Shown here one piece after another: positions 10,147-34,217 of a DNA stretch of 37,262 bases. The stretch is from Kineosporia mesophila (GTDB lineage Bacteria > Actinomycetota > Actinomycetes > Actinomycetales > Kineosporiaceae), in the NCBI RefSeq assembly GCF_021129235.1, contig NZ_JAJOMA010000042.1:1-37262 (forward strand), given 5' to 3'. Position 1 is the stretch's first letter. Each line of letters begins with the position of its first letter. The notes beneath the pieces were generated by a model. That model was not told where the DNA came from and ran no database searches. It saw only the letters and a list, made by a program, of their open reading frames with translations. A program made the position numbers and the translations under genes.

Positions 10147-10237
10147 AGCCAGTCCCATCCGGTCTGACCTTGACCGGATACACCCCCTGCTCCGGCTCGA
10201 TCCAGCAACGATGGCTGTGCGAAGTACCCTCGAAGCC

Positions 10238-11692
10238 ATGAGCCTCACCCCGGCCACCACGTTCCGCCTGGACAACCGTTTCGCCCGTGAACTCCCCGAG
10301 ATGGCCATCGCCTGGACAGGCGAGGGCGCCCCCGGGCCCCGGCTGCTGGTTCTCGACGAGCACCTGGCAGAAGAGCTGGGCCTCGACCCGGACTGGCTGC
10401 GCAGCGCGGAAGGGCTGGAGCTACTGGTCGGGACCGGTGTGGTGGAGGGCGCGACCCCGGTGGCCCAGGCCTACTCCGGGCATCAGTTCGGCGGATTCTC
10501 CCCGCGGCTCGGCGACGGGCGGGCCCTCTTGCTCGGCGAGCTGACCGATGCCGACGGGAACGTCCGTGACCTGCATCTGAAGGGTTCGGGGCGCACGCCC
10601 TTCGCCCGTGCCGGTGACGGCCTGGCCGTGGTCGGCCCGATGCTGCGCGAGTACATCGTCAGTCAGGCCCTGCACGCGCTGGGCATCCCGACCACCCGTT
10701 CGCTGGCCGTGGTCGCGACCGGACGTCCGGTTCAGCGCGAAACCATAGTTCCAGGAGCGGTTCTGGCCCGGATTGCCAGTAGCCACCTGCGGGTCGGCAG
10801 CTTCCAGTTCGCCTCGCTGACCGAGGACCCGGACCTGCTGCGCCGCCTGGCCGACCACGCGATCAACCGGCACCACGCGAGCGCCGCCCCGTCGGATCGT
10901 CCTTACTTGGCCCTGCTGGAGGCCGTGATCGCCGCCCAGGCCGATCTGGTGGCGCGGTGGATGCTGGTGGGGTTCGTGCACGGGGTCATGAACACCGACA
11001 ACATGACGATCTCCGGGGAGAGCATCGACTTCGGGCCGTGTGCGTTCCTGGACGCCTACGACCCGGCCGCGGTCTACAGCTCGATCGACCGGGACGGCCG
11101 CTACGCCTTCGGCAACCAGCCGGCGATCGCCCAGTGGAACCTGACCCGCCTGGCCGAGACCCTGCTCCCCCTCATCGACGACGACCAGGACACGGCGATC
11201 GAGCTGGCCACGACGTCCCTGCGCGGTTTCGCCGCACGGTACGAGAACGCCTGGGCGAGCGGAATGCGGGCCAAGCTCGGCCTGCCCGAGGGTTCCGACG
11301 CCACGGTGCTGACAGAGGAACTCCTGGATCTGCTGCGGACCCACCAGGTCGACTACACGTCGTTCTTCCGCTCGCTGTCCGGAGCGGCCCGTGGAGATCT
11401 CGAACCCACGCGGGGCCTGTTCCCCCACCCCGTGACCGCCGACGACTGGCTGGCCCGGTGGAGCGCCCAGGAGCCTCAGGCGAAACTGATGGACGAGGTC
11501 AACCCGGCCTACATCCCGCGCAACCACCTGGTCGAGGAGGCCCTGGCCGCCGCGACCGACGGCGATCTCGCCCCGCTCGCACGGCTCATGGAGGCGGTGA
11601 CGAGCCCGTACGACGAACGACCCGGGCTGGAGCGTTACGCCGTGCCGGCGCCGGCGGACTTCGGCACGTACCGGACCTTCTGCGGCACGTGA
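10238..11692 (+). CDS. selO: protein adenylyltransferase SelO (YdiU/UPF0061)
   Basis: A 484-residue pseudokinase-fold AMPylase that transfers AMP from ATP to Ser/Thr/Tyr of target proteins, linked in the characterised E. coli enzyme to redox homeostasis. Family blocks are intact: [34 protein letters not shown] (ATP-binding Lys and glycine-rich region), [20 protein letters not shown], the catalytic [16 protein letters not shown] and metal-binding DFGPCAFLD, and [15 protein letters not shown]. The C-terminus ends TFCGT, placing a Cys where some eukaryotic homologues carry selenocysteine. I chose the ATG at 10238 (MSLTPATTF) over the in-frame ATG at 10211. Single-gene unit. Confidence 0.95.
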
Positions 11693-13947: not shown

Positions 13948-14847
13948 TCAGTCCAGCCCCGACCGGCCGGTCAGCACCACGATCTGCGGGCCGTCGATCG
14001 GTGTGCTGAGGGCGTGGTTCAGCAGACCGGCCAGGCCCGCCGCCCCCGACGGGCTGGCGTCGACGCCGTACCCGGTCAAAAGCTTCTGGGCGGCCACCAG
14101 CTCGTCGTCGGTCGCGGCGTGCACCACTCCCCCGGACGCGTCGATCGCGATCATGGCAGCGGGTCCGTGCAGGGCGTGCCAGTTCACCAGTGGCTCGTTG
14201 TGCTCGGTGGTCACGACGGCCCCGGTCGGCAGCGGCTCGTACGGTCCGGGCCAGCTGGTGACGATCGGGTTGTTGCCCGGGGAACCGACGGCGTGCAGCG
14301 GCACGGACCAGCCCAGCGCCCGCAGACGCCGGTGGAACGCGACGACCGTGGTGCCGTTGCCGACCGGCAGCCACATCGTCGCCGGGATCGGCCCGAGTTC
14401 CCGGTGCAGGGCCTGCACGACGCGGCCGTGTCCGTCCAGGACGGCGTCCTGGTACGGGCCGTCGACGTTCCCGTCGGCGGCCCCGGCCTCGGCGGCCAGG
14501 CGGTGGGACTCCTCGACGGCGTCCTCGTAACCGCCCGGGGCGAAGCGAATGTCGGCTCCGGTGGCCTCGGCGAACGCACCTCCGTCACCCCAGCCCTCGG
14601 GAAGGACGACGGTGCACCGCAGCCCTTCCTGCGCGCAGGCCGTCGCCATCGCCCGGCCGTAACTGCCGCACGATCCGACGAAGACCCGCTCATGGCCGTC
14701 GGCGCGGGCCGCAGCCGCCACCGAACGGGCCGCGGGTTCCTTGTGACTACCGGAGGCGTAGAGGGTTTCGTCCTGGAGCAGAACACTGAGACCGGGGACG
14801 AGGTCGTCCACGGAGATCAGCCGGGTGCGGGGGGCGGTGGTGGTCAC
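13948..14847 (-). CDS. PLP-dependent fold-type II enzyme (threonine synthase-like)
   Basis: A 299-residue enzyme. The PLP lysine lies in ASGSHKEPAARS (about residues 30-41). The glycine-rich phosphate loop is GSCGSYGRAMATA, and the cofactor-ring Ser/Gly region is SPSGAAGLAGL near the C-terminus. This is the tryptophan-synthase-beta/threonine-synthase/cysteine-synthase superfamily, which does beta- or gamma-elimination and replacement on amino acids. The exact reaction cannot be read; supply of a non-proteinogenic amino acid for the adjacent synthetase is a reasonable inference. Its GTG start overlaps the synthetase stop by 4 nt (GTGA), implying translational coupling. Last gene of the operon. 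Confidence 0.85.
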   Translation of the reverse strand: MTTTAPRTRLISVDDLVPGLSVLLQDETLYASGSHKEPAARSVAAAARADGHERVFVGSCGSYGRAMATACAQEGLRCTVVLPEGWGDGGAFAEATGADIRFAPGGYEDAVEESHRLAAEAGAADGNVDGPYQDAVLDGHGRVVQALHRELGPIPATMWLPVGNGTTVVAFHRRLRALGWSVPLHAVGSPGNNPIVTSWPGPYEPLPTGAVVTTEHNEPLVNWHALHGPAAMIAIDASGGVVHAATDDELVAAQKLLTGYGVDASPSGAAGLAGLLNHALSTPIDGPQIVVLTGRSGLD

Positions 14848-17800
14848 AGGGAGGTCCTCTGATCCTGACGGTGGGCGGCGAGCAGTGCGTCGGCCTCCCG
14901 CTGGAGGTCGTCGCGGGTGCCGATGAAGTCCGGCGGGGTGGCGTCGGGCAGTTCGTCCTCGATCAGGCGCAGCCGCGGGGTGAACCAGCCGCGGATCGCC
15001 CAGGCCAGCTGGAGCACACCGCTGAGCACGACCAGCAGGGCCAGCCCGCGGCCGGGCCCGGCCGAGCTGAACAAGGGCTGGACGTAGCGCTCGGCCAGCG
15101 GCCCGATGATCAGGTAGCCCACCGGCAGGGTGAGCATCATCAGGGTGATGAACAGCGACAGCACCCGGCCCTGGAGTTCGAGGTTGACCTTGGTCTGGAC
15201 GATGGCGATCCAGTGGCCGTCGGCGAGGGACTCGGCCACGCCGACGAAGAACATCCCGGCGATGATCAGGGCCGGGACGGTGGTGATACCGACGACGACC
15301 ATGGCGATGCTGCCGACCGCCATGGCCACGAGCATCCCGTGGCTGCGCCGGGCCGTTCCGCCCCAGACACCCATCAGGACACCGCCGGTCAGCACCCCCA
15401 CGCCACCGGCGCCCAGGGCCGCGCCCAGCACCGAGGCCGACTGCTCCAGCAGCAGCATCGGGGTGATGACCGCGAAACCCAGCGCGTAGAAGGCATGGTC
15501 GATGACGAAGAACCGCACGGCCGCGACCAGGCCGGGCCGGCGGGCGATGAACTGCCAGCCGTTGCGGATCTCGGCGGTGAAGCTCTCCTCGCGGCGGCGG
15601 AACATCAGATCCGGGAAGCGGACGAGCAGCAGGCTGATCGCCCCCGCCGCGAACGTGCCCGTGTCCACCAGCAGCACGCCGCTGATGCCGATCGGGCCCA
15701 TCAGCGCCGCTCCCAGCATGGGCGAGAAGACCTGCCCGACACCGAGCCCGAGCTGACCGATGCCGCTGGCGTGCCCGAGATAGCGCTTGGGCACCAGCTG
15801 GGCGACCGCGGCCAGGTAGGCCGGGCGCTGGAAGGCACTGGCCACCGAGGTGAGCGCCACCGCCAGATAGACGTGCCACAGGTGCAGGCCGTCGTTCAGC
15901 ATCAGCGCGGCCAGACTCGCCATCGCGACCCCGGCCGCGGTGTCACCGGCCAGCATCACCCGGCGCCGGTCCCAGCGGTCGGCCACGGCCCCCGCGATCG
16001 GCCCGGCCAGGATGCCGGGCAGCAGGCCGACCGCATTGACCACGGAGAACGCGGTGATCGAGCCGGTCTCCCGCAGCACCCAGATGCTCAGCACCAGGGT
16101 GCTCAGGCCGCTGCCGATCATGGACAGGAACTGGCCGAGGGCGACCAGCGCGAACTTCCCCAGATGGGCGGAGGCCACCGGCGCGGCCGGGGCCGGGACC
16201 GGGCTCGACCCGCCCGCGACGAAATCCTCCAGGGCCCCGGCGAGCGGCTCGGCGTGACTCTTCACGAAGAAGTGCCCGGCCTCGGGCAGCACCGCCACAT
16301 CGACGTCGCCCTCGGTGAAGTGCCGCCATTCCTGGTGGCGTTCCTGATAGTGCTCGGTGACCCGGTCGCGGGCCCCGACCACGGCCCGCACCGGGGCCTT
16401 CAGGGGCCGGTACGCACCCCGGTAGGCACCGGTGAAGTACTCCTCGGCGTCCCGGTCGTCCTGGCGCACGTTGCGCAGCACGAACTCCTGCTGGTCCTTG
16501 TCCTCCAGGTCGGTGAAACCACCACGGGCGCGCAGATAAGCGAGGTACTCACGGTTGGAGGTCAGACGGTCGACCCGGACGTTGCGGTAGAACCAGTCGA
16601 AGAACCGCCCGGGCAGCCGGGCCGTCGGGAACCCCGCCCCCAGCGCCACCCCGGCCACGGGCACACCCGCCTCCTCGGCCTGGCGGGCCATCTCGACCGT
16701 GAGCGCGACGCCCTGACAGTGCCCGTAGAAGACGACCGGGCCCTCGATCGCCTGGAGCTCCTGCGCGACCCGGGCCGCAATCGCGTCGATGGGCTCCAGT
16801 TCCTCGTCGGGCCGGGCGTAGTCGTGGCCGGGCAGTTCCACGGCGTGCAGGGCCCAGCCGGCCGGCAGGGAGTCGGCCAGCGGCTGGTAGGCGACGGCGC
16901 TGCCACCGGAGTAGGGCACCGCCACGACCGTGTGACCGCCGCCGGACCGGTCGGCCTCGGCGGCGCTCAGCCGGTTCAGCAGTCCACGCTCGGAAGTCTC
17001 ACCCTGAGACAGTTGGACAGCCAGCCGCCGGATCGTGGCGTGACGGTAGAAGTCCACGAGGCTGGGCGAGGGCTCCAGGCGCCGCACCACCTTCAGCGCG
17101 GCGAACGAATCACCGCCCAGGGCGAAGAAACTCTCGTCGATGCCCGGGACCTCGATGCCGAGCACATCCGCCCAGACGGCCGCGATGTGCTGCTCGGCGG
17201 CGGTGCGGGGCGCCGTGCCGGCGCTCGCGGGCGTGCCCTCCGGCGGGGCGGGCAGGGCCTTGCGGTCCAGCTTCCCGTTCGGTGTCTGCGGCAGTGCGGG
17301 CAGCGTGAGGATCCGGGTGGGCACCATGTGCGGGGGCAGCCGCTCGGCCAGGGCTTCCCGCAGACCCGCCTCGTCGGCCGTGTCGGCTTCGGCCCGGTGG
17401 ACGACGTATCCGATCAGCTGGGTCAGGCCGTCACCGCGCCGGTGCGGGGCGGCCGCGGCGGCGCTGATCCCGGGCAGAGCCGCGAGCGCCGCCTCGATGT
17501 CGCCGAGTTCGATCCGGTACCCGTTGACCTTGACCTGGTCGTCGAGACGGCCCAGGAAGTCGACGGTGCCGTCGCGGCGGAACCGGGCCGAGTCGCCGGT
17601 GCGATACATCCGGGCGCCGGGGCGGTCGGCGAACGGGTCTGCCAGGAAACGGGTCTCGTTCAGGTCGGGCCGCTCGTGGTAGCCCGGTGAGACGCCGTGC
17701 CCGCCGAGGTACAGCTCGCCGGTCACCCCGGCGGGTACCGGGCGGTGGCCGGCGTCCAGGACGTAGACGCGGTTGTTCGGGAAGGGGCGCCCGATGGGCA

Positions 17801-20800
17801 GCGGAGCGTCGTCGGCGAGATGCTCGACGGATCCCTCGAAGTACACGTTGTCGACGGTGACCTCGGTGACGCCGTACGAGTTGACGACCCGGTGACCCGG
17901 GCCGACGAGCTGCTGGGCGAGCCGGAACTCCTCGACGTGCCATTTCTCGCCGCCGCCGATCAGCAGGTCGACGAATCCGAGACCGCCGTTGTCCCGGGCG
18001 TGCTCGAACAGGGCCCGCAGTACCGCGGGCACCAGCTCGGTGCAGTTCACCTGCTCGGAGCGCATCAGGTCGTAGAGCTCGGCCGGGTCGAGCAGCGTCT
18101 CGCGGGAGGCCACGACCAGGCGTCCGCCCGCGGTGTGGGCGCGCATGGTCTCGCCCACGAACATGTCGAACGACGAGCTGGCCGCCTGGAGGTAGGTCCA
18201 TTCCGGCCGGAGCCGGTAGGCCTCCTGCCACATCCCGGCGGCGTGCACCAGGTTTCCGTGGGTGATCACGACACCCTTGGGCCGGCCGGTCGAGCCGGAG
18301 GTGTAGATGACGTAGGCCGGATCGTCCGCAGTATTGACGGCGGGTGGGTCGCTCTCGTTCTCGTCGTCCGTCGTCGCGGCGATGAAGGACGCGTCGATCA
18401 CCACGGTGGGGCGGCTGTCGGTCAGCATGTGGTCGAGCCGGTCGGCGGGGTAGGCCGGGTCGAGCGGCACGTAGGCCCCACCCGCCTTGAGCACGGCCCA
18501 CATCGCGACGAAGAAGCCGGTGCCGCGCTCCAGCTGGATGGCCACCCGATGACCGGGCAGCACACCGGCGTCCCGCAACCGCCAGGCCAGCCGGTTGGCC
18601 CGGCGGTTCAGCTCGGCGTAGCCGATGGTCTCGCCGCCGGCGGTGAGCGCGGGTGCGTGCGGGGTGGTGGCGGCGTGGCGCTGAAGGAGTTCGTGGACGG
18701 TGGTGACGTCCGGAGCCGGGATGGTGACGTCGTTCCAGTCGTGCAGGATGCGCTGCTGTTCGGCGTCACCGAGCATCCGCATCCGGGTGATCGGTTCGGC
18801 CGCACCCAAGGCCGCCTCGCCGAGCACGGTCAGCAGGTGATCCAGCAGGGCCTCGATCCGGGCGCCGTCGAACAGCTCGGTGGCGAGGTCGGCGCTGAGC
18901 ACCGCGCCGTCGGCGGTGAAGTCGAGGCTGATCGAGAGGTCGACCATCGTTGCCGCGGGTGCTGTTTCACCCGCGTAAGTGAGGACCGAGCCGTCGGGGG
19001 CGGGGGTGTTGTGCACGGTCAGCATGACCGGGCTGACGCGTTTGGCACCGCCGGGACGGGCCGTCGCGGTGACCAGATCGGGCAGCGCCAGGTCCTGGTG
19101 GTCGAGGTCGCTCAGCACGTCGTCCCGCACCCGGGCGACGAGCTGGTCGAACGTCGGCTCCCCGGTGACGTCGCCGCGGATCGGGAGCACGTTCAGGACG
19201 GGCCCGATGACGGACGCGAGGGCACTGGTCGAGCGGCCCGCCACCGGGGAGAGGACGGTCAGGTCGGTGCGGCCGGTGTAGCGCCGCAGCACCACCTGGA
19301 GACCGGCGAGCACGACCGTGAACAGGCTCGCCCGCTGCCGGCCGGCATAGGCGCGCAGGTGTTCCAGCAGGACGGGATCGAGGGTGCGGCCGACCCGGGC
19401 GGAGGCGTAGGAACGCACGACGGGTGCCGGCCGGTCGGCCGGGAGTTCCAGGTCCAGATCGGCGCCGGTGAACCGTTCCCGCCAATAGGTGACGAGGGAC
19501 GCGTCGGCCCGGGCCCGGTCGGCCCGCTGCGCGAGATCGGGGAACGGGAGCGTCGGCGCCAGCCCCGCGGCAGCAGCGAGATCCCCTATCGGGGTGGGAT
19601 GTCCGGTCGTGGCCAGGGCGGCCCGGTACAGCGCGGCCAGTTCCTGGCCGAACACCCCGGCCGACCAGCCGTCGAAGGCGAGGTGGTGCACTCGCAGGGT
19701 GATCTCGGTTCCCGGATCCACCCCGGAAGCCGCGCCCGGGGACGTCCCCGGTTGATCGATCGGCTGGGTGCCGTGGAGATGGACCCGGGCGATCGGGCCG
19801 TGCCGGTGCTCGACACCGTCGGGGCCGGGTGCCCCGAGGATCAGCGGGATGGTCCCGGCCGGATCGATGACCAGGGTGGGCTCGGCGTTCTCGTCGGGGA
19901 AGTGCGCGCGCAGCAACGGGTGCCGGTGAGCCAGCTCCGCGAGCGCCCGGCGCAGCGCGTCGACGTCGGCGGGCTCGCTCCAGCGGTACCGCAGGCCCAG
20001 TGTGTACGCGGGCAGGTCGGCGGTCACCTGCTCGGCGATCCAGTAGTCGCGCTGCATCGGGTTGAGTCGATGAGGGACGCCCTCGGTGAGTCCGGTGTCC
20101 GGCGCCGGTTCCGTGGTGGGGGGAGCCTCGGTGATGTGCGCGGCGAGGGCGGCCACGGTCGGGTCGGAGTACCAGCTGGTGAGGGTGAGTTCCGCGCCGT
20201 GCCGCTGCCGCAGCGCCGCGATCAGGCGGACGGAATCAAGGGAATCGCCGCCCAGGGCGAGGAAGTCGTCGCCCGGGCCGGTCACGGCGACACCGAGCAC
20301 GGACTCCATGAGCGCCGCGGCGGCGCGCTCGGCGTCGGTGAACGCGTCCGGGATCCTCGCACCGTCGGGGCCGGGTACCTTCACCGCCAGCGCCGCCTTG
20401 TCGATCTTTCCCTGGGGTGTCAGCGGAAACCGGTCGTGCCGGCGCATGATCCCGGGGACGAAGGCGGGCGGCAGGAGCGCGGCCAGTTCGGAGCGCACCA
20501 ACGCCAGATCGGTCCCGGCGCCGGTGACCAGGTGCCCGATCAGCCGGGGGTGGCCGCTCGTGTCGTCGACCAGCACCACGGCGTCCGTGATGCCGGGCAG
20601 GGTCCGCAGGGCGGCCTCGACCTCGCCGGGTTCCACCCGGTGGCCGCGGATCTTCACCTGGTCGTCGAGGCGCCCGAGGAACTCCAGTTGCCCGGCCGAC
20701 CAGCGCACCCGGTCGCCGGAGCGGTACTCCCGGCCGTGGCCGGGGGTCGTCACGAACCGCTCGGCGGTGAGTTCGGGCCGGTTCAGGTACTCCTGGGCCA

Positions 20801-21800
20801 CGCCGGTGCCGCCGATGAGCAGTTCGTCGTCGTCACCGATGCGGCAGGTCACGCCGTCCAGGGGTGTGCCGATCGGCACCGCCTGGCCCGGGGCGCCCGA
20901 CCATGCGGTGACGTCTGCGGCGGTGGCGCCGACCGTGGTCTCGGTCGGGCCGTAGGTGTTGTACAGGCGGGCGGTGGAGCCGGCGGTGGCCCGCTGCCAG
21001 GCGCGCACCGCGTCGGGGCGGGCAGTCTCCCCGCCGACGATCACGACCCGCACGCACCCGGGCAGGGTGGCCTCGCCCTGGTCCAGGGCTGCTACCAGCT
21101 CGTGCCAGTAGGCGGTGGGCAGGTCCAGGATCGTGATCCCGAGGGCACCGCAGCGGTCGAGGAAGAGGTCCGGCCGGCTGATCATGTCGTCGTCGCGCAG
21201 CACCACGGTGGCGCCGCGGGTCAGCGAGGGGAAGATCTCCTCGACACTGACGTCGAAGCTGAGCGACGCGAACTGCAGCACCCGCTCCCGGGGGCCGAAC
21301 GCGAACCGAGTGCCGAAGGCGTTCGCGAAGTCCCGCAGCGACCGGCGTCCTACCAGCACACCCTTGGGACGGCCGGTCGAGCCCGACGTGAAGATGACGT
21401 AGGCCGGCTCCTGCCGCGGCACACTGTCGTCCAGTGGCTGCACGCCGGCGGGGGTGACCAGGGCCCGGGGGCGGCTCTCCTGGAGCATCAGGTCGAGGCG
21501 GGCCTGCGGGTAGGCGGGGTCGAGCGGCACGTACCCGGCGCCGGCCCGCAGCGTCGCCAGAACGGCCACGACCGCGGCCCGCCCCCGCGGCATCCGGATC
21601 CCGACCAGGTCGCCAGGGCGCACACCGGCCCCGGCCAGTTCGCCGGACGTGGCGGCGACCAGGTCGACGAGCTGCTGGTAGGTCAGCTCGCCGTCGGTGT
21701 CCAGCAGCGCTGGGGCGTGTGGGGTCCGGGCGGCCTGCCGGGCCACGGACGACCAGACGTCGTCGTCCGGCAGGACGGGTGCCTGCGGTGTAACGGTCAC
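14844..21800 (-). CDS. NRPS A-T-C-A-T-TE fused to C-terminal MFS exporter
   Basis: A 2318-residue protein in one uninterrupted frame. Order by residue: A1 about 20-480 (VIFTSGSTGRPKGV, NTYGPTETTVGAT), T1 with Ser near 517 (ALGGDSLDS), and C about 577-1015 with HHLAFDG near 703. A2 covers about 1033-1510 (VIYTSGSTGRPKGV), and T2 has its Ser near 1563 (ALGGDSFAA). The TE (about 1622-1862) has nucleophile motif GHCQG (Cys1695), Asp near 1810 and His near 1842. A 12-TM-type MFS domain (about 1878-2270, EntS/MFS_3-like, with ADRWDRRRVM) follows. By-eye codes: A1 DVEDIGTVGK (acidic pocket, probably a cationic substrate), A2 DMGEIGSVDK (8/10 to ornithine DVGEIGSIDK). No epimerase or N-terminal C domain. 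It would make a dipeptide-scale product, release it by the Cys-TE and export it, tethered at the inner membrane face. GTG start with GAGGAGAAG upstream. Confidence 0.93.
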   Translation of the reverse strand: MTVTPQAPVLPDDDVWSSVARQAARTPHAPALLDTDGELTYQQLVDLVAATSGELAGAGVRPGDLVGIRMPRGRAAVVAVLATLRAGAGYVPLDPAYPQARLDLMLQESRPRALVTPAGVQPLDDSVPRQEPAYVIFTSGSTGRPKGVLVGRRSLRDFANAFGTRFAFGPRERVLQFASLSFDVSVEEIFPSLTRGATVVLRDDDMISRPDLFLDRCGALGITILDLPTAYWHELVAALDQGEATLPGCVRVVIVGGETARPDAVRAWQRATAGSTARLYNTYGPTETTVGATAADVTAWSGAPGQAVPIGTPLDGVTCRIGDDDELLIGGTGVAQEYLNRPELTAERFVTTPGHGREYRSGDRVRWSAGQLEFLGRLDDQVKIRGHRVEPGEVEAALRTLPGITDAVVLVDDTSGHPRLIGHLVTGAGTDLALVRSELAALLPPAFVPGIMRRHDRFPLTPQGKIDKAALAVKVPGPDGARIPDAFTDAERAAAALMESVLGVAVTGPGDDFLALGGDSLDSVRLIAALRQRHGAELTLTSWYSDPTVAALAAHITEAPPTTEPAPDTGLTEGVPHRLNPMQRDYWIAEQVTADLPAYTLGLRYRWSEPADVDALRRALAELAHRHPLLRAHFPDENAEPTLVIDPAGTIPLILGAPGPDGVEHRHGPIARVHLHGTQPIDQPGTSPGAASGVDPGTEITLRVHHLAFDGWSAGVFGQELAALYRAALATTGHPTPIGDLAAAAGLAPTLPFPDLAQRADRARADASLVTYWRERFTGADLDLELPADRPAPVVRSYASARVGRTLDPVLLEHLRAYAGRQRASLFTVVLAGLQVVLRRYTGRTDLTVLSPVAGRSTSALASVIGPVLNVLPIRGDVTGEPTFDQLVARVRDDVLSDLDHQDLALPDLVTATARPGGAKRVSPVMLTVHNTPAPDGSVLTYAGETAPAATMVDLSISLDFTADGAVLSADLATELFDGARIEALLDHLLTVLGEAALGAAEPITRMRMLGDAEQQRILHDWNDVTIPAPDVTTVHELLQRHAATTPHAPALTAGGETIGYAELNRRANRLAWRLRDAGVLPGHRVAIQLERGTGFFVAMWAVLKAGGAYVPLDPAYPADRLDHMLTDSRPTVVIDASFIAATTDDENESDPPAVNTADDPAYVIYTSGSTGRPKGVVITHGNLVHAAGMWQEAYRLRPEWTYLQAASSSFDMFVGETMRAHTAGGRLVVASRETLLDPAELYDLMRSEQVNCTELVPAVLRALFEHARDNGGLGFVDLLIGGGEKWHVEEFRLAQQLVGPGHRVVNSYGVTEVTVDNVYFEGSVEHLADDAPLPIGRPFPNNRVYVLDAGHRPVPAGVTGELYLGGHGVSPGYHERPDLNETRFLADPFADRPGARMYRTGDSARFRRDGTVDFLGRLDDQVKVNGYRIELGDIEAALAALPGISAAAAAPHRRGDGLTQLIGYVVHRAEADTADEAGLREALAERLPPHMVPTRILTLPALPQTPNGKLDRKALPAPPEGTPASAGTAPRTAAEQHIAAVWADVLGIEVPGIDESFFALGGDSFAALKVVRRLEPSPSLVDFYRHATIRRLAVQLSQGETSERGLLNRLSAAEADRSGGGHTVVAVPYSGGSAVAYQPLADSLPAGWALHAVELPGHDYARPDEELEPIDAIAARVAQELQAIEGPVVFYGHCQGVALTVEMARQAEEAGVPVAGVALGAGFPTARLPGRFFDWFYRNVRVDRLTSNREYLAYLRARGGFTDLEDKDQQEFVLRNVRQDDRDAEEYFTGAYRGAYRPLKAPVRAVVGARDRVTEHYQERHQEWRHFTEGDVDVAVLPEAGHFFVKSHAEPLAGALEDFVAGGSSPVPAPAAPVASAHLGKFALVALGQFLSMIGSGLSTLVLSIWVLRETGSITAFSVVNAVGLLPGILAGPIAGAVADRWDRRRVMLAGDTAAGVAMASLAALMLNDGLHLWHVYLAVALTSVASAFQRPAYLAAVAQLVPKRYLGHASGIGQLGLGVGQVFSPMLGAALMGPIGISGVLLVDTGTFAAGAISLLLVRFPDLMFRRREESFTAEIRNGWQFIARRPGLVAAVRFFVIDHAFYALGFAVITPMLLLEQSASVLGAALGAGGVGVLTGGVLMGVWGGTARRSHGMLVAMAVGSIAMVVVGITTVPALIIAGMFFVGVAESLADGHWIAIVQTKVNLELQGRVLSLFITLMMLTLPVGYLIIGPLAERYVQPLFSSAGPGRGLALLVVLSGVLQLAWAIRGWFTPRLRLIEDELPDATPPDFIGTRDDLQREADALLAAHRQDQRTSL

Positions 21801-21840: not shown

Positions 21841-22824
21841 TTACAGCGACCAGGACGTGGGGACGCGGTCCCAGCGGTGCTCCCGCAGCGCGTCGATCAG
21901 CTCCGGGGGCAGCGGGGTGCCGTCCGAGACCGCGAGGTTGGAGCGCACGTGCCCGGGACGCCGCATGCCCGGGATGACCGTGGAGACGGCCGGGTGGTGC
22001 AGGATGAAGCGCAGGGCCAGTTCCGGCAGGGTCATGCCCTCGGGTACCAGGTCGCGCAGCGCGTCGACCCGGGTGATGGTCTCCGGCAGGTTCTCCGGGC
22101 CGAAGTAGACGGCGCGCCAGTCGTCGGCCGGGAACGTGGTCGCGGCGTTCATCGTCCCGGTCAGCGAGCCCTCGTCGAAGGGCACCCGGGCGACGATCGC
22201 GATGTTCTCCTCCAGCGCGCGGGGGAACAGCTCGTCCTCCGGAGCCTGGTCGAAGATGTTGTAGATGACCTGGATCGCGTCGACGAGACCGGTGTCGAGG
22301 GCGGCGAAGCAGTTCGTCGGCTCCCAGCGGTTGACGCTGATGCCGAACCCGCCGATCAGGCCCTCCTCCTTGAGCTGGGTGACGGCCTTCTGCCAGCCCG
22401 GCTCACCGGCCCAGCGGTCTTCCCAGACATGCAGTTTCAGCAGGTCGATCCGGTCGACGCCGAGGTTGTCGAGGCTGCGGCGGGTGTACTCGAGGATGTG
22501 CTGTGCCGGGAAGACGTCTTCCAGCGTGTCCTGCGGGCGCGGCGGCCATTCCCGGTTCAGCGGCGGGATCTTGGTGGCCACGCGCAGGTCCGTCCCGGAC
22601 CGGCGCCGGCGCAGCTCGCCCAGCAGGCTCTCGGACTTGCCGCGCCCGTAGACCCAGGCCGTGTCGAAGAAGGTGCATCCCAGGTCGACGGACAGGTCGA
22701 GCGCGGTCGGGGCCACGTCGTAGTCCCAGCCGGTGAAACCGCCCGGTCCCCCGCCGATTCCCCACATGCCGTAGCCGATCTCGCTGACGTCCCAGCCGAG
22801 TCGGCCCATGGTGCGGTGCTGCAT
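21841..22824 (-). CDS. aldo/keto reductase
   Basis: A 327-residue NADPH-dependent AKR with the catalytic tetrad Asp54, Tyr59 (FFDTAWVYG), Lys85 (VATKIP) and His132 (LLKLHVW). It has the N-terminal RTMGRLGWDVSEIGYGMW typical of the YajO/general-stress-69-like subgroup. The phosphate-binding segment near the C-terminus (VSTVIPGMRRPGHVRSN) is present. It lies between the A-T-R gene (34 bp upstream) and the large synthetase (40 bp downstream) on one strand. The obvious cluster role is reducing the aldehyde released by the A-T-R protein to an alcohol, or another carbonyl of the product (inference). Confidence 0.92.
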   Translation of the reverse strand: MQHRTMGRLGWDVSEIGYGMWGIGGGPGGFTGWDYDVAPTALDLSVDLGCTFFDTAWVYGRGKSESLLGELRRRRSGTDLRVATKIPPLNREWPPRPQDTLEDVFPAQHILEYTRRSLDNLGVDRIDLLKLHVWEDRWAGEPGWQKAVTQLKEEGLIGGFGISVNRWEPTNCFAALDTGLVDAIQVIYNIFDQAPEDELFPRALEENIAIVARVPFDEGSLTGTMNAATTFPADDWRAVYFGPENLPETITRVDALRDLVPEGMTLPELALRFILHHPAVSTVIPGMRRPGHVRSNLAVSDGTPLPPELIDALREHRWDRVPTSWSL

Positions 22825-22858: not shown

Positions 22859-25800
22859 TTACTGCGCGAGGGCGGCGGGCACGCGGTGACGGTTCAGTCC
22901 GTGGCGCTGCTCGAACGCGGCCCCGGCCGTGCGGTCGAAGCAGGCGGGGTTGTCCTGCAGCAGGTTCTCCAGCACGGCGCGGGCCGTGTCCTCGTCGTCC
23001 AGGCCGCCACCCGCGCGGTGATCGATGACGGCCAGCAGCGTGCTCAGCCCGGTGTCCCCGGCGGCCGCGACGCGCAGGTCGGCCAGGAAGCGCGTGCAGG
23101 CCACCCGCGGCGTCACCGGGAACTCGGCGAGCTCGTCGAAACGCACGCTCCCGGGGCGGAAGACATGCAGGACACCGCCCCACACGGTGGTGTCGCGCAC
23201 GGCCTCGGCCACGGTGCGGGCGACGGCGTCGACCGGGGTGTAGTCCGACCGGATCGCGGCCCGGGGAACGGCTCCGAGCTGCTCGAAGGCCTGCAGCAGC
23301 AGATGGGTCACCGCGGTCGGGTTCGCGATCGGTCCCGCCGGGCCTGCCGGGTTCACGGGCCGGACGGCCGGCATCACCTCGCCGAGGCGCAGCACGGTCA
23401 CGGGCAGGTCGGTGGCGGCGTTCAGCAGCCGTTCGGCCACCCACTTCGATCGGCTGTAACCGCTGCGCGGCGCCGTCACGCCGGCGAGGTCGACGTCTTC
23501 GCCGAGCACGCCGGGCGTGCGCATCGCGTGGTCGTGCAGCACGCCCAGCGTCGAGATGTAGTGCAGGGGAACGCCGCCGGCCTCGCGGGCGAACCGGATC
23601 AGCTCGGCCGTGCCCCGCACGTTGGGGTCGCGGTGCATGCGGTAGTCGTAGAGGAAGTTGACCATCGCACCGTTGTGCACAACCAGATCGACCGCCTGGG
23701 CCAGTGAAGACCATTGCTCCGGGCTCAGTCCCAGGCCGGGGCGGGACAGGTCACCGGCGACCGCCCGGACCCGGCCGGTGAACCCGGGGTGATCGAGCTG
23801 CTGGCCGGTCAGGGCCGTGTCCAGACGACGGCGCGCCTGGTCGTCGTCCGGGGCCCGCACCAGACAGACCACGGTCAGGTCCGGGTCGTCGAGCAGCTCG
23901 TGCAGCAGATGCGTTCCGACGAAACCGGTGGCTCCGGTGAGAAGCACCGTCCGCACCGGCTGATCGCGCCGTTCACGCCGGGCCGGGACCGGGCCCGTCA
24001 GGTCCGCCAAATCGGCCGCGACCAGTGCCGCCTCCTCCGGAACCCTCTCGTGGTCGAGCTCGCGCCGGGTGATCAGCTCCCGCAGTCCGGCGGCGGTGGG
24101 GTGATCGACCAGGTCCCGGACCCCGATCTCCACCCCGAACCGGTCGGTCAGTGCGACCACGGCCGCGACCATCAGCAGGGAATTCGCCCCCGCGGCGAAG
24201 ACGTCGTCGTGCGCCCGCAGACGGGGACGGCGCATCGCGGTCCGCAGGACCCGCAGGACCTCGTCGTCGGTCCGGTCGTCGAGATCGGCCGCCCCGGCCA
24301 CGTCGGCCAGTTCCGCCTCCAGCGCCAGTTGCCGGCGGTCGGTCTTGCCCGCAGCGGTGAGGGGTATCTCCTCGAGGACCAGGCACCGCTGCGGCACACT
24401 GCTGCGGGGCAGCCGGGAACCCAGATGCGTCAGCACTTCTGCCGCGGGGACGGTCCCGGTGACGACCAGCACCAGCTCCCGGCCGGTGGCCGGCCCGACG
24501 ACCAGGGCCACAGCCTGCCGAACCCCCGGCAGGCTCAGGGCTGCGGCCTCGACCTCCCCCGGCTCGATACGGACCCCACCGACCTTGATCTGATGGTCGA
24601 TGCGACCGGAGAAATGGAACCGGCCTCGCTCGTCGAGATGTCCCAGGTCACCGGTGCGGTAGAGGCGACCGGTCAGCACGGGGCCGGCCCCGGGCCAGGG
24701 GCAGTCGAAGAATCGCTGGGCGCTCCGGTCGATCTCACCGTGGTAGCCGAGCCCGACACAGACCCCGCCGATGACGATCTCGCCGGTGGCGCCCGGGGGC
24801 AGAGGCCTGCCGTCGACGTCCACGACGACCGCGCCACAGTTGTCGACGGGCCGCCCGAGCGGTACGTCGTCGCCGTCGGCCTCGGTCACCTCGTGGAAGA
24901 TCATGCCGATCGCGGCTTCCGAGGGCCCGTAGCCGTTGCTCACCCGCAGCCCCGGCAGCAGCCGCTGGAGCCGGTGCACGTCGTGCGGGTTGATCTGCTC
25001 CCCGCCGACCACGAGATGGCGCAGTGAGCGCAGCCGCCCGACCAGGGCAGGCCGTTGTTCCAGCAGGGACAGCAGGGCGTTCAGGAGCGCGGGCACGAAG
25101 TCGGTGACCGTCACACCGTGGGTCTCGATCAGGTCGATGGTGTGCTGAAGGTCGCGGTGTTCCCCGGCGGTGGGAACGACCGTGGCCCCGCCGGTGGTCA
25201 GCGGCCAGAAGATCTGCCAGAACGCGGAATCGTAGGTGTGCCGGGTGTTCTGCAGCACCACCTCACGGGCCGGGGCCGGGCCGAACCAGCTGGTCATGAA
25301 CGCCAGCCGGTTGGCCAGGGCACCGTGCGAGTTCACGGCGCACAGCGGCGTCCCGGTGGTGCCGGAGGTGTACACCCCGTAGACGACGTCGTGCGGACCG
25401 GTGACCACACCGTCCTTGATTCCCGAACTTTTTTCTGTGGCAGAAACTTCCACCACCAGGGCCCGGTCGCGGTGGTGAGCCGGCATCAGGTCGGGGTCGG
25501 TGCACAGCACCGGCGCGCCCGCCAGGAGATCGAGCACCCGCTCGATTCTCGATGCGGGCCAGTGCGGATCGACCGGCACGTAGCCCACCCCCGCGAACAT
25601 GGCTCCGGCCCAGGCCACGGGCAGGGCCAGCCCGTCGGCGACGAGAACGGGAATCAGCGAGCCCGGGGCGGGAGCGGCGGCGATGATCCGCACGGCCAGC
25701 CGCCGGGCGTGAGCCACGAGCTCACCGTAGGTCAGGGTTCCGTCCGTGGCATGAACTGCCACGAGTTCCGGTGTCCGTCGCGCCATGTCGCTGACCTGCG

Positions 25801-26248
25801 CGGGAACACCGCGGAACGGCCCGTGATCGATCGTGACCCCGGCGAGCGGCCCGAGGACCGCCGCCTCGGTGGCCCGGGACAGTGCCGGAGCGGCGGTCGG
25901 GTCCAGGTCGGGATCGGCCAGCAGGGCCTGTGTCAGCTGCGTGCACATCTCGACCACGGCCGTGGTGGCGGGCGCCCAGGGATCGCCGTCGGACAGTTCT
26001 ATTTCATAGCTCACACAATATTTTTCATCAAAAATACAACGAATGACCGGCCCGCCGTCGGAGGTCGTCAGGCAGACCGTGAGCGCCGCCGCGACGCTGC
26101 GCTCCACCGAGGAGCCCACGACTATGAGGTCACGGTCCAGCCGGCGCGCCACCTCCTGTACGGCCCGGACGGCCGATGCCACGAATGCGTCCGAGAACTG
26201 ATGTTTTCGGAGAACGGGATCGGGCTGCATTCGGTCCACCGGGCTCAT
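22859..26248 (-). CDS. free-standing A-T-thioester reductase (NRPS-like)
   Basis: From the ATG at 26248 the protein is 1129 residues; starts at 26230 (ATG) or 26320 (TTG) cannot be excluded. Order: an unassigned N-terminal region of about 120 residues, an adenylation domain (VYTSGTTGTPLCAV, NGYGPSEAAIGM, YRTGDLG), a carrier domain with Ser in AGANSLLM, and a reductase domain with NADP motif LLTGATGFVGTHL and catalytic YSRSK. Such Lys2/MxcG-like modules activate an acid, load it as a thioester and release it reductively as an aldehyde or alcohol. By-eye A code DSWDVGGIGK gives no safe substrate. First gene of the operon, and no condensation domain is recognisable. The first about 300 bp are unusually AT-rich, around 25995-26050. 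Confidence 0.9.
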   Translation of the reverse strand: MSPVDRMQPDPVLRKHQFSDAFVASAVRAVQEVARRLDRDLIVVGSSVERSVAAALTVCLTTSDGGPVIRCIFDEKYCVSYEIELSDGDPWAPATTAVVEMCTQLTQALLADPDLDPTAAPALSRATEAAVLGPLAGVTIDHGPFRGVPAQVSDMARRTPELVAVHATDGTLTYGELVAHARRLAVRIIAAAPAPGSLIPVLVADGLALPVAWAGAMFAGVGYVPVDPHWPASRIERVLDLLAGAPVLCTDPDLMPAHHRDRALVVEVSATEKSSGIKDGVVTGPHDVVYGVYTSGTTGTPLCAVNSHGALANRLAFMTSWFGPAPAREVVLQNTRHTYDSAFWQIFWPLTTGGATVVPTAGEHRDLQHTIDLIETHGVTVTDFVPALLNALLSLLEQRPALVGRLRSLRHLVVGGEQINPHDVHRLQRLLPGLRVSNGYGPSEAAIGMIFHEVTEADGDDVPLGRPVDNCGAVVVDVDGRPLPPGATGEIVIGGVCVGLGYHGEIDRSAQRFFDCPWPGAGPVLTGRLYRTGDLGHLDERGRFHFSGRIDHQIKVGGVRIEPGEVEAAALSLPGVRQAVALVVGPATGRELVLVVTGTVPAAEVLTHLGSRLPRSSVPQRCLVLEEIPLTAAGKTDRRQLALEAELADVAGAADLDDRTDDEVLRVLRTAMRRPRLRAHDDVFAAGANSLLMVAAVVALTDRFGVEIGVRDLVDHPTAAGLRELITRRELDHERVPEEAALVAADLADLTGPVPARRERRDQPVRTVLLTGATGFVGTHLLHELLDDPDLTVVCLVRAPDDDQARRRLDTALTGQQLDHPGFTGRVRAVAGDLSRPGLGLSPEQWSSLAQAVDLVVHNGAMVNFLYDYRMHRDPNVRGTAELIRFAREAGGVPLHYISTLGVLHDHAMRTPGVLGEDVDLAGVTAPRSGYSRSKWVAERLLNAATDLPVTVLRLGEVMPAVRPVNPAGPAGPIANPTAVTHLLLQAFEQLGAVPRAAIRSDYTPVDAVARTVAEAVRDTTVWGGVLHVFRPGSVRFDELAEFPVTPRVACTRFLADLRVAAAGDTGLSTLLAVIDHRAGGGLDDEDTARAVLENLLQDNPACFDRTAGAAFEQRHGLNRHRVPAALAQ

Positions 26249-26384
26249 AAGGCAGCAATCAAACGAATCCGAGCATCCGGGACACCGCCATGAAATGACC
26301 TGGACGCAAACCCGAAGCAAAAGTTGCCACCGATCGGTGTCAGAGACGTCAGCGTCGTCGAAACTTCCTGGTGTGGATCACAGC
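26249..26384. promoter_or_regulatory. divergent promoter region of the biosynthetic cluster
   Basis: About 136 bp separate the minus-strand A-T-R operon from the plus-strand GNAT-racemase pair. It must hold both promoters. I see no clear -35/-10 pair or strong palindrome, and no regulator gene lies within the cluster. Confidence 0.5.
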
Positions 26385-27254
26385 ATGGGAACAATGGCCG
26401 CGCGGGCGAGTGCGACGCGAGCGGCCGGGACGGCCGGCGTCCGGGTGCGGGCCTTGACATCGACGGCGGACAGCTTCGCCTGCGAACGGTTTCTGGCCGA
26501 CGTGTGGCAGACCGGGCCAGAACACCCCCCGCTCGCCGCCGACGTGATCCGGGCGATGGCCGATGCCGGGAGTTACGTGGCGGGCGCCCTGGACGACAGG
26601 CTGGAGGGTACCCCGGACGAGGAGCGGCTGCTGGCCGCCGGCATCGGGCTGTGGGGACCACCCGGGCGGCCCGAGATGCACAGTCACATCGCCGGGGTGC
26701 ACGCGCAGGCCCGCGGCCGCGACGTCGGCTTCGCCCTGAAGCTGGACCAGCGCGCTCACGCCCTGGAGCACGGTGCCCACGAGATCACCTGGACCTTCGA
26801 CCCTCTGGTGGCCCGCAATGCCCACTTCAACGTCCGGAAACTCGGCGGCGGGGCGCAGGCCTACCTGATCGACCACTACGGCCAGCTGTCCGACGGGCTG
26901 AACGGCACCGACGAGACCGACCGGCTCCTGCTGCGCTGGGAGCTGCTGGGGGAACGAGCCCGCTCGGCCTGCGAGGATGGCGCCCAGGCCGGCGTCCCTC
27001 GGCCGGCACCGGAGGTGGCGCTGGGCCGTGACGGCGAACGCCCCGGGCCACGTCCGGCCCCGACCGGGGCCGGTCCTGTCCTGGTCTCGGTACCGCACGA
27101 CATCGAGGGCCTGCGCACCCGTGACCCCGAGCTGGCCGGCGCCTGGCGCCTCGCTGTCCGCGAGGTGCTCGGAGGACTCCTGGCCGGCGGCGCCCAGATC
27201 GTCGATTTTGACCGTTCAGCAGGCGGTTACGTGCTCGCCCGGGGAGGCCGGTGA
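26385..27254 (+). CDS. GNAT acyltransferase, COG3375 type (probable N-succinyl/acyltransferase)
   Basis: About 289 residues from the ATG at 26385; starts at 26295, 26337 or 26394 are also possible. The signature of the COG3375 GNAT group is clear: MHSHIAGVHAQARGRDVGFALKL (in two parts), EHGAHEITWTFDPLVARNAHFN, KLGGGAQAYLIDHYG and GLNGTDETDRLLLRWEL. In several bacteria this group pairs with N-succinylamino-acid racemase and is shown or proposed to N-succinylate amino acids. Its stop overlaps the racemase start (TGATG), so the two are coupled. It may acylate the cluster's amino acid so that the racemase can act. Confidence 0.8.
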   Translation: MGTMAARASATRAAGTAGVRVRALTSTADSFACERFLADVWQTGPEHPPLAADVIRAMADAGSYVAGALDDRLEGTPDEERLLAAGIGLWGPPGRPEMHSHIAGVHAQARGRDVGFALKLDQRAHALEHGAHEITWTFDPLVARNAHFNVRKLGGGAQAYLIDHYGQLSDGLNGTDETDRLLLRWELLGERARSACEDGAQAGVPRPAPEVALGRDGERPGPRPAPTGAGPVLVSVPHDIEGLRTRDPELAGAWRLAVREVLGGLLAGGAQIVDFDRSAGGYVLARGGR

Positions 27255-28366
27255 TGCAGGTCGAACGCGTCGTGCTACGGCAGATCAATCTGCCACTGGT
27301 CAGCCCGTTCCGGACGTCGCTGGGGATCGAGTACGAAAAGCCCGCGCTCCTGGTGCAGGTGACCACCTCGTCCGGTGACGGATGGGGTGAGAGCGTCTCC
27401 GGGTTCGACGCCAGCTACTCCTCGGAGTACATCGAGGGAACCCACGACGTCATGCAGCGGCACCTCATCCCCCGGCTGCTGGCCGCACCGAGCGTGACGG
27501 CGAGCGCCGTGGCGCCGCTGCTGGCCCCGGTCAAGGGCCATCGGATGGCCAAGGCCGCTCTGGAGATGGCCGTGATGGATGCCGAACTACGTTCCTACGG
27601 GATGTCTTTTGCCACGTCGCTGGGCGCCGTCACCGACCGGGTGCCGAGTGGGGTGTCGGTCGGCATCATGAACTCGGTGCCGGAGCTGCTGGCTGCTGTC
27701 TCGGGCTACCTGGACCAGGGGTACCGGCGGATCAAGCTCAAGATCGAGCCGGGCTGGGACATCGCGCCGGTGCGCGCGGTGCGTGAACGGTTCGGTGACG
27801 ACGTGGTGCTGCAGGTGGACGCGAACGCCGCCTACACCGCGGCCGACGCCCGTCACCTCGCCCGCCTCGACGACTTCGGCCTGCTGCTCATCGAGCAACC
27901 GCTGGACGAGGAGGACATGCGCGGGCACGCCGCGCTGTGCCGCGATCTGAGAACTCCCATCTGCCTGGACGAATCCATCGTGTCGGCGCGCTCGGCGGCC
28001 GATGCCATCGCCTGGGGCGCCTGCCACATCGTCAACATCAAACCGGGGCGGGTCGGCGGCTACCTGGAGGCCCGGCGTATCCACGACGTGTGCGCAGCCT
28101 CGGGTGTCCCGGTCTGGTGCGGCGGCATGCTGGAGACCGGGCTGGGCCGGGCCGGCAACGCCGCGCTGGCCGCTCTGCCCAACTTCACCCTGACCGGTGA
28201 CGTCTCGGCATCCGACCGGTACTTCGCGACCGACATCACCGAACCGTTCGTCCTGCGTGACGGGCACCTGGACGTGCCGGGCGGCCCGGGTCTGGGGGTC
28301 GTGCCGATCCCCGATCTGCTGGACGAGGTCACCACCTCGATGCAGGAACTGGTGAGACCCCGGTGA
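27254..28366 (+). CDS. N-acylamino-acid racemase / o-succinylbenzoate synthase-type enolase
   Basis: A 370-residue enolase-superfamily enzyme, very close in pattern to the Amycolatopsis N-acylamino-acid racemase/OSBS. Catalytic lysines are Lys163 (KLKIEPGWD) and Lys263 (NIKPGRVGGYLEARR), and metal ligands are Asp189 (VDANAAY), Glu214 (IEQPLDEED) and Asp239 (CLDES). The numbering is identical to the characterised enzyme. It begins at the ATG overlapping the GNAT stop. Pairing with a GNAT and not with menaquinone genes favours the racemase role: interconverting D- and L-N-acyl (N-succinyl) amino acids. No N-acyl hydrolase is in the window. The stop is followed at once by an ABC-gene fragment. 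Confidence 0.9.
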   Translation: MQVERVVLRQINLPLVSPFRTSLGIEYEKPALLVQVTTSSGDGWGESVSGFDASYSSEYIEGTHDVMQRHLIPRLLAAPSVTASAVAPLLAPVKGHRMAKAALEMAVMDAELRSYGMSFATSLGAVTDRVPSGVSVGIMNSVPELLAAVSGYLDQGYRRIKLKIEPGWDIAPVRAVRERFGDDVVLQVDANAAYTAADARHLARLDDFGLLLIEQPLDEEDMRGHAALCRDLRTPICLDESIVSARSAADAIAWGACHIVNIKPGRVGGYLEARRIHDVCAASGVPVWCGGMLETGLGRAGNAALAALPNFTLTGDVSASDRYFATDITEPFVLRDGHLDVPGGPGLGVVPIPDLLDEVTTSMQELVRPR

Positions 28367-32966: not shown

Positions 32967-33028
32967 GGGCACGACCTCAGCTGATCATGGATCTGGTCTG
33001 AGGAAACCGTGATCAGAAGGCCGTGCCC
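32967..33028. repeat. imperfect inverted repeat before the transposase remnant
   Basis: GGGCACG at 32967-32973 pairs with CGTGCCC at 33022-33028, and TGATCA at 32982 with TGATCA at 33010, forming an interrupted stem. The position just 5' of the transposase frame suggests an element end or its regulatory hairpin. No matching right-hand copy was found. Confidence 0.45.
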
Positions 33029-33880
33029 GTGGACCTGTCCCCCCTCATCCTGCCCACTTTCGACCAGTCGTCACCGGAACGAGTCTGCCCGGACGTGACA
33101 GTGGGTGAGATCGGGAGCGTCGCGTCCGCTGTGGCCGCGACGGCCGATCCCCACAAGGCCCGCGGCGTGCGGCACAGCGCGTTCGGCCTGGTCCTGGGCA
33201 TCATGGTCGCGATCCTGGCCGGCGCCCGCAGCACGCTCGAGATCGCCGGGCCTGTCCAGGACCTCAGCAGCCGTCAGCGTGGACAGATCGCCCTGACCTG
33301 GAACCTGGCGCCGAGCCTGTCCACGATCCGGCGGTTCCTGCTCGCGCTGGAACAGGCGGTTCGGCAGGACGCCCTGAACGCCTGGGCGCAAGCCCACGCG
33401 GCACGGATTGCTGCCACCCAGAACGGTTTACGGCACTTCATGATGGACGGGAAGTCCCAGCGCGCAGCCGCCTGCAAGGCCCGGCCCCAACCGCATCTGA
33501 TGGGCGTCCTGGACATCGGCGACACCGACGTCGGGGCACGCCTGCGCCACCGGACCGAGAAACGCGTGGTCCCGGTGACCTCCATCGGCCACCGGGACGA
33601 GCAGATCGTTGCCTCACGTCCGGCGCGTCGCCCGCTACGACAAACGCAAAACCCGCCCCGAACGACGCCGGTAGTGGAAGAAACTCGAAACCGCCTACGA
33701 CCTCTGCACCCTCAACCAGGTCCGGCTCAGACCGTCCGCGAGCAGGGGCCATCGAGTCCTGGCACTGGCCACGCGACGTCACCTCCGGAAAGCACCACCA
33801 CCGCGCCCCGCAGCGGCAACCTCGCCGCCCACCTCGCTACCCTGCGCAACGCCGCGATCAGGACGCAGATGTGGCAACGG
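33023..33880 (+). pseudogene. degenerate ISAs1-like transposase
   Basis: The N-terminal part resembles ISAs1-family transposases: KARGVRHSAFGLVLGIMVAI, AGARSTLEIAG, LAPSLSTIRRFLLALEQ, then HFMMDGKSQR, equivalent to the first catalytic Asp in VDGK. After LDIGDTDVGA the sequence jumps to RHRTEKRVVPVTSI, skipping the block with the second catalytic Asp. The C-terminal block appears in two frames: IESWHWPRDVTSG in one, SGNLAAHLATLRNAAI in the next. Internal deletion plus at least one frameshift make it non-functional. The open frame runs on without similarity to 34159. Confidence 0.7.
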
Positions 33881-34217
33881 CGTCGGGAAGCTGAACCCTC
33901 GCCGAGGGTGCCACCCTGGGCGCCCGTCCACGAGGAACTCGAACGGGATCGTACGCGATCAAAAGCCATGAGGGAAAAGGACTCCGAAGATCCTGACACG
34001 CCGGCGGACGAGTGTTTTCACCGGGCCCGTCCCGCCTTGATGCGGAGATTTCCTCGCCCCGTCGCTTTCACTGCGCCCGGGGCATACGCCGGCTCACGCC
34101 CCTCGGCAGCACTGACGGTTTACGAGGAATTTATGATGACTTGTCCGTTTTTCTGGTAGGTTCGCGGTTGTTCGGAGCACGAAGAAGTCCTCCGTGAACA
34201 GCCCGGAGAAGCGAGAC
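33881..34217. other. region without a recognisable gene
   Basis: The open frame left over from the transposase continues here but has no family similarity. An AT-richer patch at about 34120-34165 (TTTACGAGGAATTTATGATG) may hold a promoter for the downstream genes. No right-end inverted repeat of the element could be identified. Confidence 0.35.

Follow-up and report, generated by a model that had tools for sequence, protein, structure and literature searches.

We describe a gene of Kineosporia mesophila in which a nonribosomal peptide synthetase (NRPS) and a transporter of the major facilitator superfamily (MFS) are encoded as one continuous polypeptide. The gene lies on contig NZ_JAJOMA010000042.1 (RefSeq assembly GCF_021129235.1), of which the stretch of 37,262 nucleotides analysed here, positions 1 to 37,262, is referred to as the window. 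It occupies positions 14844-21800 on the minus strand as a single open frame of 2,318 amino acids (aa), with a GTG start at 21800 preceded by GAGGAGA. The order of its domains, delimited using profiles made in this analysis, is A-T-C-A-T-TE-MFS (A, adenylation; T, carrier; C, condensation; TE, thioesterase). The initial annotation of the locus had read one frame through A-T-C-A-T-TE into a complete MFS transporter, and the open frame, Pfam, the profiles and a structural model with 12 membrane helices all bear this out.

All domains are given on the minus strand. Adenylation domain 1 (20379-21740) carries the specificity letters DVEDIGTVGK, which would denote a basic, Lys-like amino acid; here and throughout, amino acids read from specificity letters are tentative. 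It is followed by carrier domain 1 (20133-20330; LGGDS), the condensation domain (18756-20066; HHLAFDG) and adenylation domain 2 (17256-18692), whose letters DMGEIGSVDK are identical in all five clusters compared below (window included) and presumably Orn-like. Carrier domain 2 (17010-17198; LGGDS) precedes the thioesterase (16239-16931), which has a Cys nucleophile, Cys1695, in the motif GHCQG and both the Asp and the His of the catalytic triad. An Ala/Pro-rich linker of 22 aa (16164-16229) leads to the MFS transporter (14982-16163), with 12 transmembrane (TM) helices and the 2A0121/Mef models as its nearest matches, and to a C-terminal tail that is predicted to be cytoplasmic (14847-14981). 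Pfam reported AMP-binding, PP-binding, Condensation, Thioesterase (residues 1623-1858) and MFS_1 (1885-2223), all above cut-off, and no stop intervenes between the end of the TE at residue 1858 and the start of the MFS part at about residue 1880. With ordered A, T and C domains bearing core motifs and a terminal TE, the protein has the organisation of a type I modular NRPS, and two A domains, one C domain and two carriers could join two amino acids.

Whole-protein orthologues were found in Kineosporia babensis (74.7% identity to the window's protein), Actinoplanes couchii (74.8%) and Amycolatopsis azurea (70.9%), and an Embleya record holds a further cluster with the fusion; these four and the window make up the five clusters referred to in this text. 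The coding frame across the TE-MFS linker is open in 5/5 clusters, one other forward frame is stopped in each, and the third is also open. An internal start for a separate MFS protein, sought with a simple and non-exhaustive Shine-Dalgarno-plus-start pattern, was matched in none of the five. The initial annotation had placed the same architecture in actinomycetes more widely, correctly: we collected 72 fused open reading frames (ORFs), or 69 non-redundant TE-MFS proteins after the copies L069, L157 and L184 were dropped. Because independent assemblies carry the fusion, chance and sequencing error are excluded as its source. The linkers range from 21 to 126 aa across the fused set, all in frame. 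A Trp-Trp pair (e.g. WWLQGV in L012) recurs in 47 of the 69 otherwise variable linkers and is absent from the window's group of 13.

The TE-MFS part was compared with 84,980 species, each represented by one genome, by a short-pattern method that is not exhaustive. The 14 loci returned come exclusively from actinomycetes, and in each of them TE and MFS share a frame (14/14). In a sample of genomes of the class, the TE-MFS query at an E value of 1e-40 matched 24 of 394 genomes, among them G219 by its TE alone and G253 by a separate MFS; a TE-only query at 1e-15 matched 41 of 388. The strongest TE relatives (56 places, at E 8.4e-44 or below) run in frame into an MFS in 55 cases, spread over 21 of the 388 genomes at 1 to 5 per genome, and the remaining one, L152, is cut by the end of its contig. 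The place next in rank (L077 in G219) shows no fusion; two Cys TEs stand there in tandem. Twenty-seven places were weaker still; none of the 14 examined (13 fetched as regions and one within L091) was fused. Within the genus Kineosporia, 2 of 6 genomes carry the fusion. Because of this patchiness, and because the K. babensis protein is no nearer to the window's than that of A. couchii, the sequences suggest horizontal transfer. No description of an NRPS-MFS fusion was found in the open-licence PMC literature, judged by titles and abstract openings, and one may have been published elsewhere. On these comparisons, TE-MFS is an end unit that recurs among actinomycete NRPSs and of which the open-licence literature yielded no description. 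Two further loci are worth recording. The large plasmid pCLA1 of Streptomyces clavuligerus encodes an NRPS-MFS fusion whose terminal code is Asp-like (L051:5732-12349, plus strand), at a place where an incomplete table lists no gene, and the tandem-TE protein mentioned above (L077:9002-12280, minus strand) is an NRPS with Cys nucleophiles in both thioesterase domains and without an MFS.

Of the 69 fused proteins, 64 have Cys as the TE nucleophile and 5 have Ser, and all 69 possess the triad's Asp and His; many fused TEs outside the window's group read GHCGxG instead of GxCxG. A Cys TE is thus ruled out as a requirement of the fusion, as 5/69 have Ser. Control TEs were taken from 30 loci picked by Pfam score. 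They gave 28 aligned rows, after L105, L106 and L108 (aligned pieces of 150 aa or less, the last two reading GYC) and a weak second piece at L100 had been left out, and Cys occurred in 2. The whole unfused set, in which near relatives of the query are over-represented and the contig-cut fused-group member L152 is included, has Cys in 11 of 52 rows. Terminal A domains of the 69 fusions are Asp-like in 31, Ser-like in 12, Orn-like in 6, Lys-like in 5, Cys-like in 3, other in 11 and unreadable in 1. The Ser TEs (L171, L172, L173, L175 and L177) form one clade, all with the terminal code DTEDIGT[IV]IK, and are exactly the five fusions with a Lys-like terminal code; for this reason, nucleophile and last residue may vary together.

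The best solved relative of the window TE by sequence is that of ObiF1, the obafluorin NRPS (6n8e; E 1.2e-35), which is also the first Foldseek match. According to the excerpted text of PMC6668435, the ObiF1 TE forms a beta-lactone by way of its Cys, and its Asp is on beta-6 instead of beta-5. The window TE shares the GHCxG nucleophile motif and aligns its Asp to the beta-6 Asp of ObiF1; it has the ObiF1-like features of a GxCxG nucleophile, Asp on beta-6 and no Asp on beta-5, with strands placed by alignment only. At the position of ObiF1 Gly1173, where EntF-like TEs have Asp, it reads in the alignment a small residue, Ala. Unlike the window protein, ObiF1 has an MbtH-like domain after its TE and not an MFS (same excerpt), and its substrate is a beta-hydroxy amino acid, whereas the terminal A domain of the window reads Orn-like. 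As regards beta-lactone formation, which takes a beta-hydroxy amino acid, the terminal code is Orn-like in the window's clade, Ser-like in 12/69 and Asp-like in 31/69 fusions. The Cys TE of the monobactam-forming SulM (sulfazecin; 8w2c/8w2d) also matches the window TE in sequence and fold. Its motif is Gln-Cys-Asn in the excerpt of PMC11298585, as opposed to His-Cys-Gln in the window, which therefore lacks the signature of a SulM-type beta-lactam enzyme, and the solved parts of SulM are without an MFS. Ring closure might occur in the window's pathway, and if the last residue is Orn-like, a delta-lactam might form in place of a four-membered ring.

The release and transport parts (residues 1601-2318, 718 aa) were modelled with AlphaFold2 using 12 relatives. 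The model (mean predicted local distance difference test score, pLDDT, 77.2; predicted template modelling score, pTM, 0.72) shows an alpha/beta hydrolase joined to 12 membrane helices by a linker of low confidence. When motif A was placed inside and the helix borders were drawn manually on the model, Lys and Arg residues numbered 21 in the inner and 1 in the outer loops; with 12 TM helices, an MFS fold and positive-inside loops, the part is an MFS transporter. Because of this charge distribution, the N-terminus of the MFS part, and with it the TE, should face the cytoplasm. In the Foldseek list, ObiF1 for the TE part was followed by VMAT1/2 and MdfA, with QacA and NorA lower and importers such as AmpG and PepT also present. 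For the transporter, a phmmer search up to E 10 gave no relative of solved structure. Among the NCBIfam models, the H+ antiporter model TIGR00900 (2A0121) matched best and over nearly its full length (204.8 bits, cut-off 319.6), followed by Mef(B) at 128.5 bits; the EntS equivalog (PRK10489) reached 80.4 bits against a cut-off of 324, and all scores were below the curated cut-offs. The exporter had been annotated at first as of EntS type, which is too specific; by these scores the transporter is nearer to the 2A0121/Mef antiporters than to EntS. Mef, 2A0121 and EntS are standalone proteins, whereas the window's transporter is the C-terminal part of an NRPS. On plasmids of Nostoc sp. MS1 and Trichormus variabilis, a related MFS gene (36.4 and 36.8% identical to the window's) starts 32 and 14 nt, respectively, after a polyketide synthase/NRPS or NRPS gene with a terminal TE. 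Unlike in the window, synthetase and transporter are separate genes in these pairs, and the TE motif is GWSMG (Ser). Another pairing of an MFS with an adenylating enzyme is LplT-Aas. According to the excerpt of PMC11416262, its MFS and its acyltransferase/acyl-ACP synthetase are encoded side by side in many bacteria, apparently share a single ORF in others, and in E. coli are separate proteins that form a coupled complex. Since LplT-Aas transports inward, contains no NRPS, has the MFS first and exists in fused forms that the same source leaves uncharacterised, it is an analogy of design only.

Phylogenetic trees were built for the MFS and TE parts; both are quick trees supported only by the Shimodaira-Hasegawa-like approximate likelihood ratio test (SH-aLRT), and several outgroup branches are long. 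In the MFS tree, with 15 standalone MFS, a single branch (SH-aLRT 87) separates all 69 fused MFS from the rest; in the TE tree, with 52 unfused rows, a branch (SH-aLRT 92) sets apart the 69 fused TEs together with the contig-cut L152. The window's TE and MFS are both inside these groups, and both trees divide the fused set identically into groups of 13 (including the window) and 56. Because each tree groups the fused set, a single old fusion in actinomycetes is probably at its root. The nearest standalone MFS are two cyanobacterial and two actinomycete proteins (L072 and L076): at L072 a TE-like ORF is followed by an MFS ORF with a stop between them, and at L076 the MFS is near a T-C protein. 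Pairwise TE and MFS distances correlate at r 0.868, a value reached in 0 of 999 permutations (n=67/69; the incomplete L053 and L017 were omitted). For the other domains, cut at fixed distances from the TE, correlation with the MFS was 0.845 (C), 0.859 (T) and 0.690 (A). As C and T follow the MFS nearly as well as the TE does, the terminal module may have been inherited together as a whole, the A domain least.

The fusion gene belongs to a conserved operon, which, like the relation of the Cys TE to ObiF1, goes beyond the initial annotation. Its genes, all on the minus strand, encode an A-T-R protein (adenylation, carrier, thioester reductase; 22859-26320, start approximate; letters DSWDVGGIGK), an aldo/keto reductase (AKR; 21841-22824) that is 81-85% identical in three orthologous clusters, the NRPS-MFS protein, and a pyridoxal phosphate (PLP) enzyme of the PALP family, threonine-synthase-like (13948-14847). 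The gaps are 34 nt and 40 nt, and the last two genes overlap by 4 nt, the GTG start of the PLP gene overlapping the NRPS-MFS stop (GTGA). Two divergent genes on the plus strand encode a conserved protein of no recognised family (26295-27254), present in 5/5 clusters, and an enolase-superfamily protein resembling N-acylamino acid racemase / o-succinylbenzoate synthase (27251-28366). The operon order is kept in five taxa and all six genes are present in 5/5 clusters; a PLP gene of the same family also stands behind the fusion in L054-L056. The enolase-superfamily protein matches the N-acylamino acid racemase/o-succinylbenzoate synthase 1sja (E 1e-165, about 70% identity by eye), which we take to be from Amycolatopsis. 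That five taxa have it next to an NRPS cluster may be a clue to what that enzyme group does in nature. For the protein at 26295-27254, a GNAT identity is unsupported, with no Pfam, NCBIfam or PDB match. In the A-T-R protein, the first 150 aa or so, ahead of the A domain, have no Pfam match. The A-T-R protein also suggested clusters for protease-inhibitor aldehydes (antipain, omicsynin, livipeptin) as an established setting for such a fusion, a reading that was set aside: the word 'transporter' is absent from the excerpted texts of PMC12783407 and PMC10548850; 'MFs' in the former denotes molecular families.

Taken together, these results make it probable, in our judgement, that the protein is a membrane-tethered peptide synthetase with a built-in release-and-export unit. 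The MFS part would insert the whole synthetase in the membrane, where residue 1 (basic, Lys-like) would be joined to residue 2 (Orn-like); our best guess at the product is a short basic peptide. The TE would load the peptide onto its Cys and release it through ring closure or hydrolysis, and the MFS would export the released product by proton antiport. The fixed 1:1 link would give each synthetase an exporter and place release beside the pump. The A-T-R protein, AKR, PLP enzyme and racemase probably supply or modify an unusual building block. Anchoring to the inner membrane face, as first annotated, agrees with 12 TM helices on the same chain and a TE predicted to be cytoplasmic, and provided that the chain is not cleaved, tethering is almost certain. 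Export of the NRPS product by the MFS is likely, mainly because the related MFS gene adjoins an NRPS gene in two cyanobacteria and is fused here, and because the fusion is conserved. TE-MFS would constitute one inherited end unit, probably fused once and then used on assembly lines with different terminal amino acids. A direct hand-off from TE to MFS is possible. We think it rather doubtful that a strained or reactive ring (a lactone, lactam or thiolactone, according to the terminal residue) is closed by the Cys TE and passed directly to the attached pump, away from the cytosol. If it were, the assembly line would finish in the membrane, and many actinomycetes would use it for a variety of products.

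Several observations weigh against this account of a tethered synthetase with its own exporter. Cleavage of the linker would undo the tether. The Ser nucleophile in 5/69 indicates that the fusion does not require Cys chemistry, and importers such as AmpG and PepT in the Foldseek list give import a small chance on the sequence evidence. Support for a single origin is moderate, given quick trees with SH-aLRT values only and long outgroup branches, and unfused MFS relatives occur in actinomycetes too (L072, L076). With C and T tracking the MFS almost like the TE (0.845 and 0.859), it may be the terminal module as a whole that is co-inherited. Finally, the amino acid assignments depend on specificity codes and are tentative.

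The strongest rival, to which we allow a little less than an even chance, is that the fusion only secures equal amounts and co-insertion, and that the MFS exports from a cytosolic pool or gives self-resistance with no hand-off from the TE. A linker that varies from 21 to 126 aa speaks against a tight channel of fixed shape, macrolide and tetracycline efflux pumps are among the nearest MFS models, and unfused neighbouring genes suffice in two cyanobacteria. However, retention of the fusion in 55/56 strongest relatives, in genomes with up to five copies, suggests more than convenience, though not necessarily channelling. It is unlikely that the locus is a siderophore system, with an EntS-like exporter and a hydroxamate or similar chelator peptide. 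Asp, Ser, Cys and Orn residues are common in siderophores, many fusions have terminal codes of these kinds, and there is the weak EntS match (80.4 bits). That match is well short of the EntS cut-off, however, and no ornithine N-oxygenase, catechol or iron-uptake family appeared in Pfam scans of a subset of window ORFs or of 20 neighbour ORFs of five other fusion loci. Less credible still is an MFS that acts as importer, or as an anchor feeding a building block to the synthetase: inward transport is known for LplT-Aas, an MFS-enzyme pair fused in some bacteria (excerpt of PMC11416262), and importers are among the Foldseek matches, but the best sequence models are efflux antiporters and the fusion sits at the release end, beside the TE. 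A lost stop codon, frameshift or assembly error joining two neighbouring genes has a negligible chance and is ruled out for practical purposes, for although separate adjacent NRPS and MFS genes exist in the cyanobacterial relatives and L072 has a stop between its TE-like and MFS ORFs, the fusion recurs in 69 non-redundant proteins from many independent assemblies and the linker is in frame in 5/5 clusters.

How NRPS products, made by an enzyme in the cytosol, leave the cell without damage to it is usually a guess based on gene neighbourhood. Here enzyme and pump are one chain, so that the sequence itself tells which pump goes with which product, and coupling of release to export becomes testable through cutting of the linker. 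The TE-MFS unit is not rare (21/388 sampled genomes of the class, up to five each) and so can mark gene clusters; it might also serve as a natural part for engineering secretion.

Two further features were noted on the plus strand of the window: a SelO-type protein adenylyltransferase near the cluster (10211-11692), and a transposase-associated DDE_Tnp_1_assoc domain (33023-34159) near the right end.

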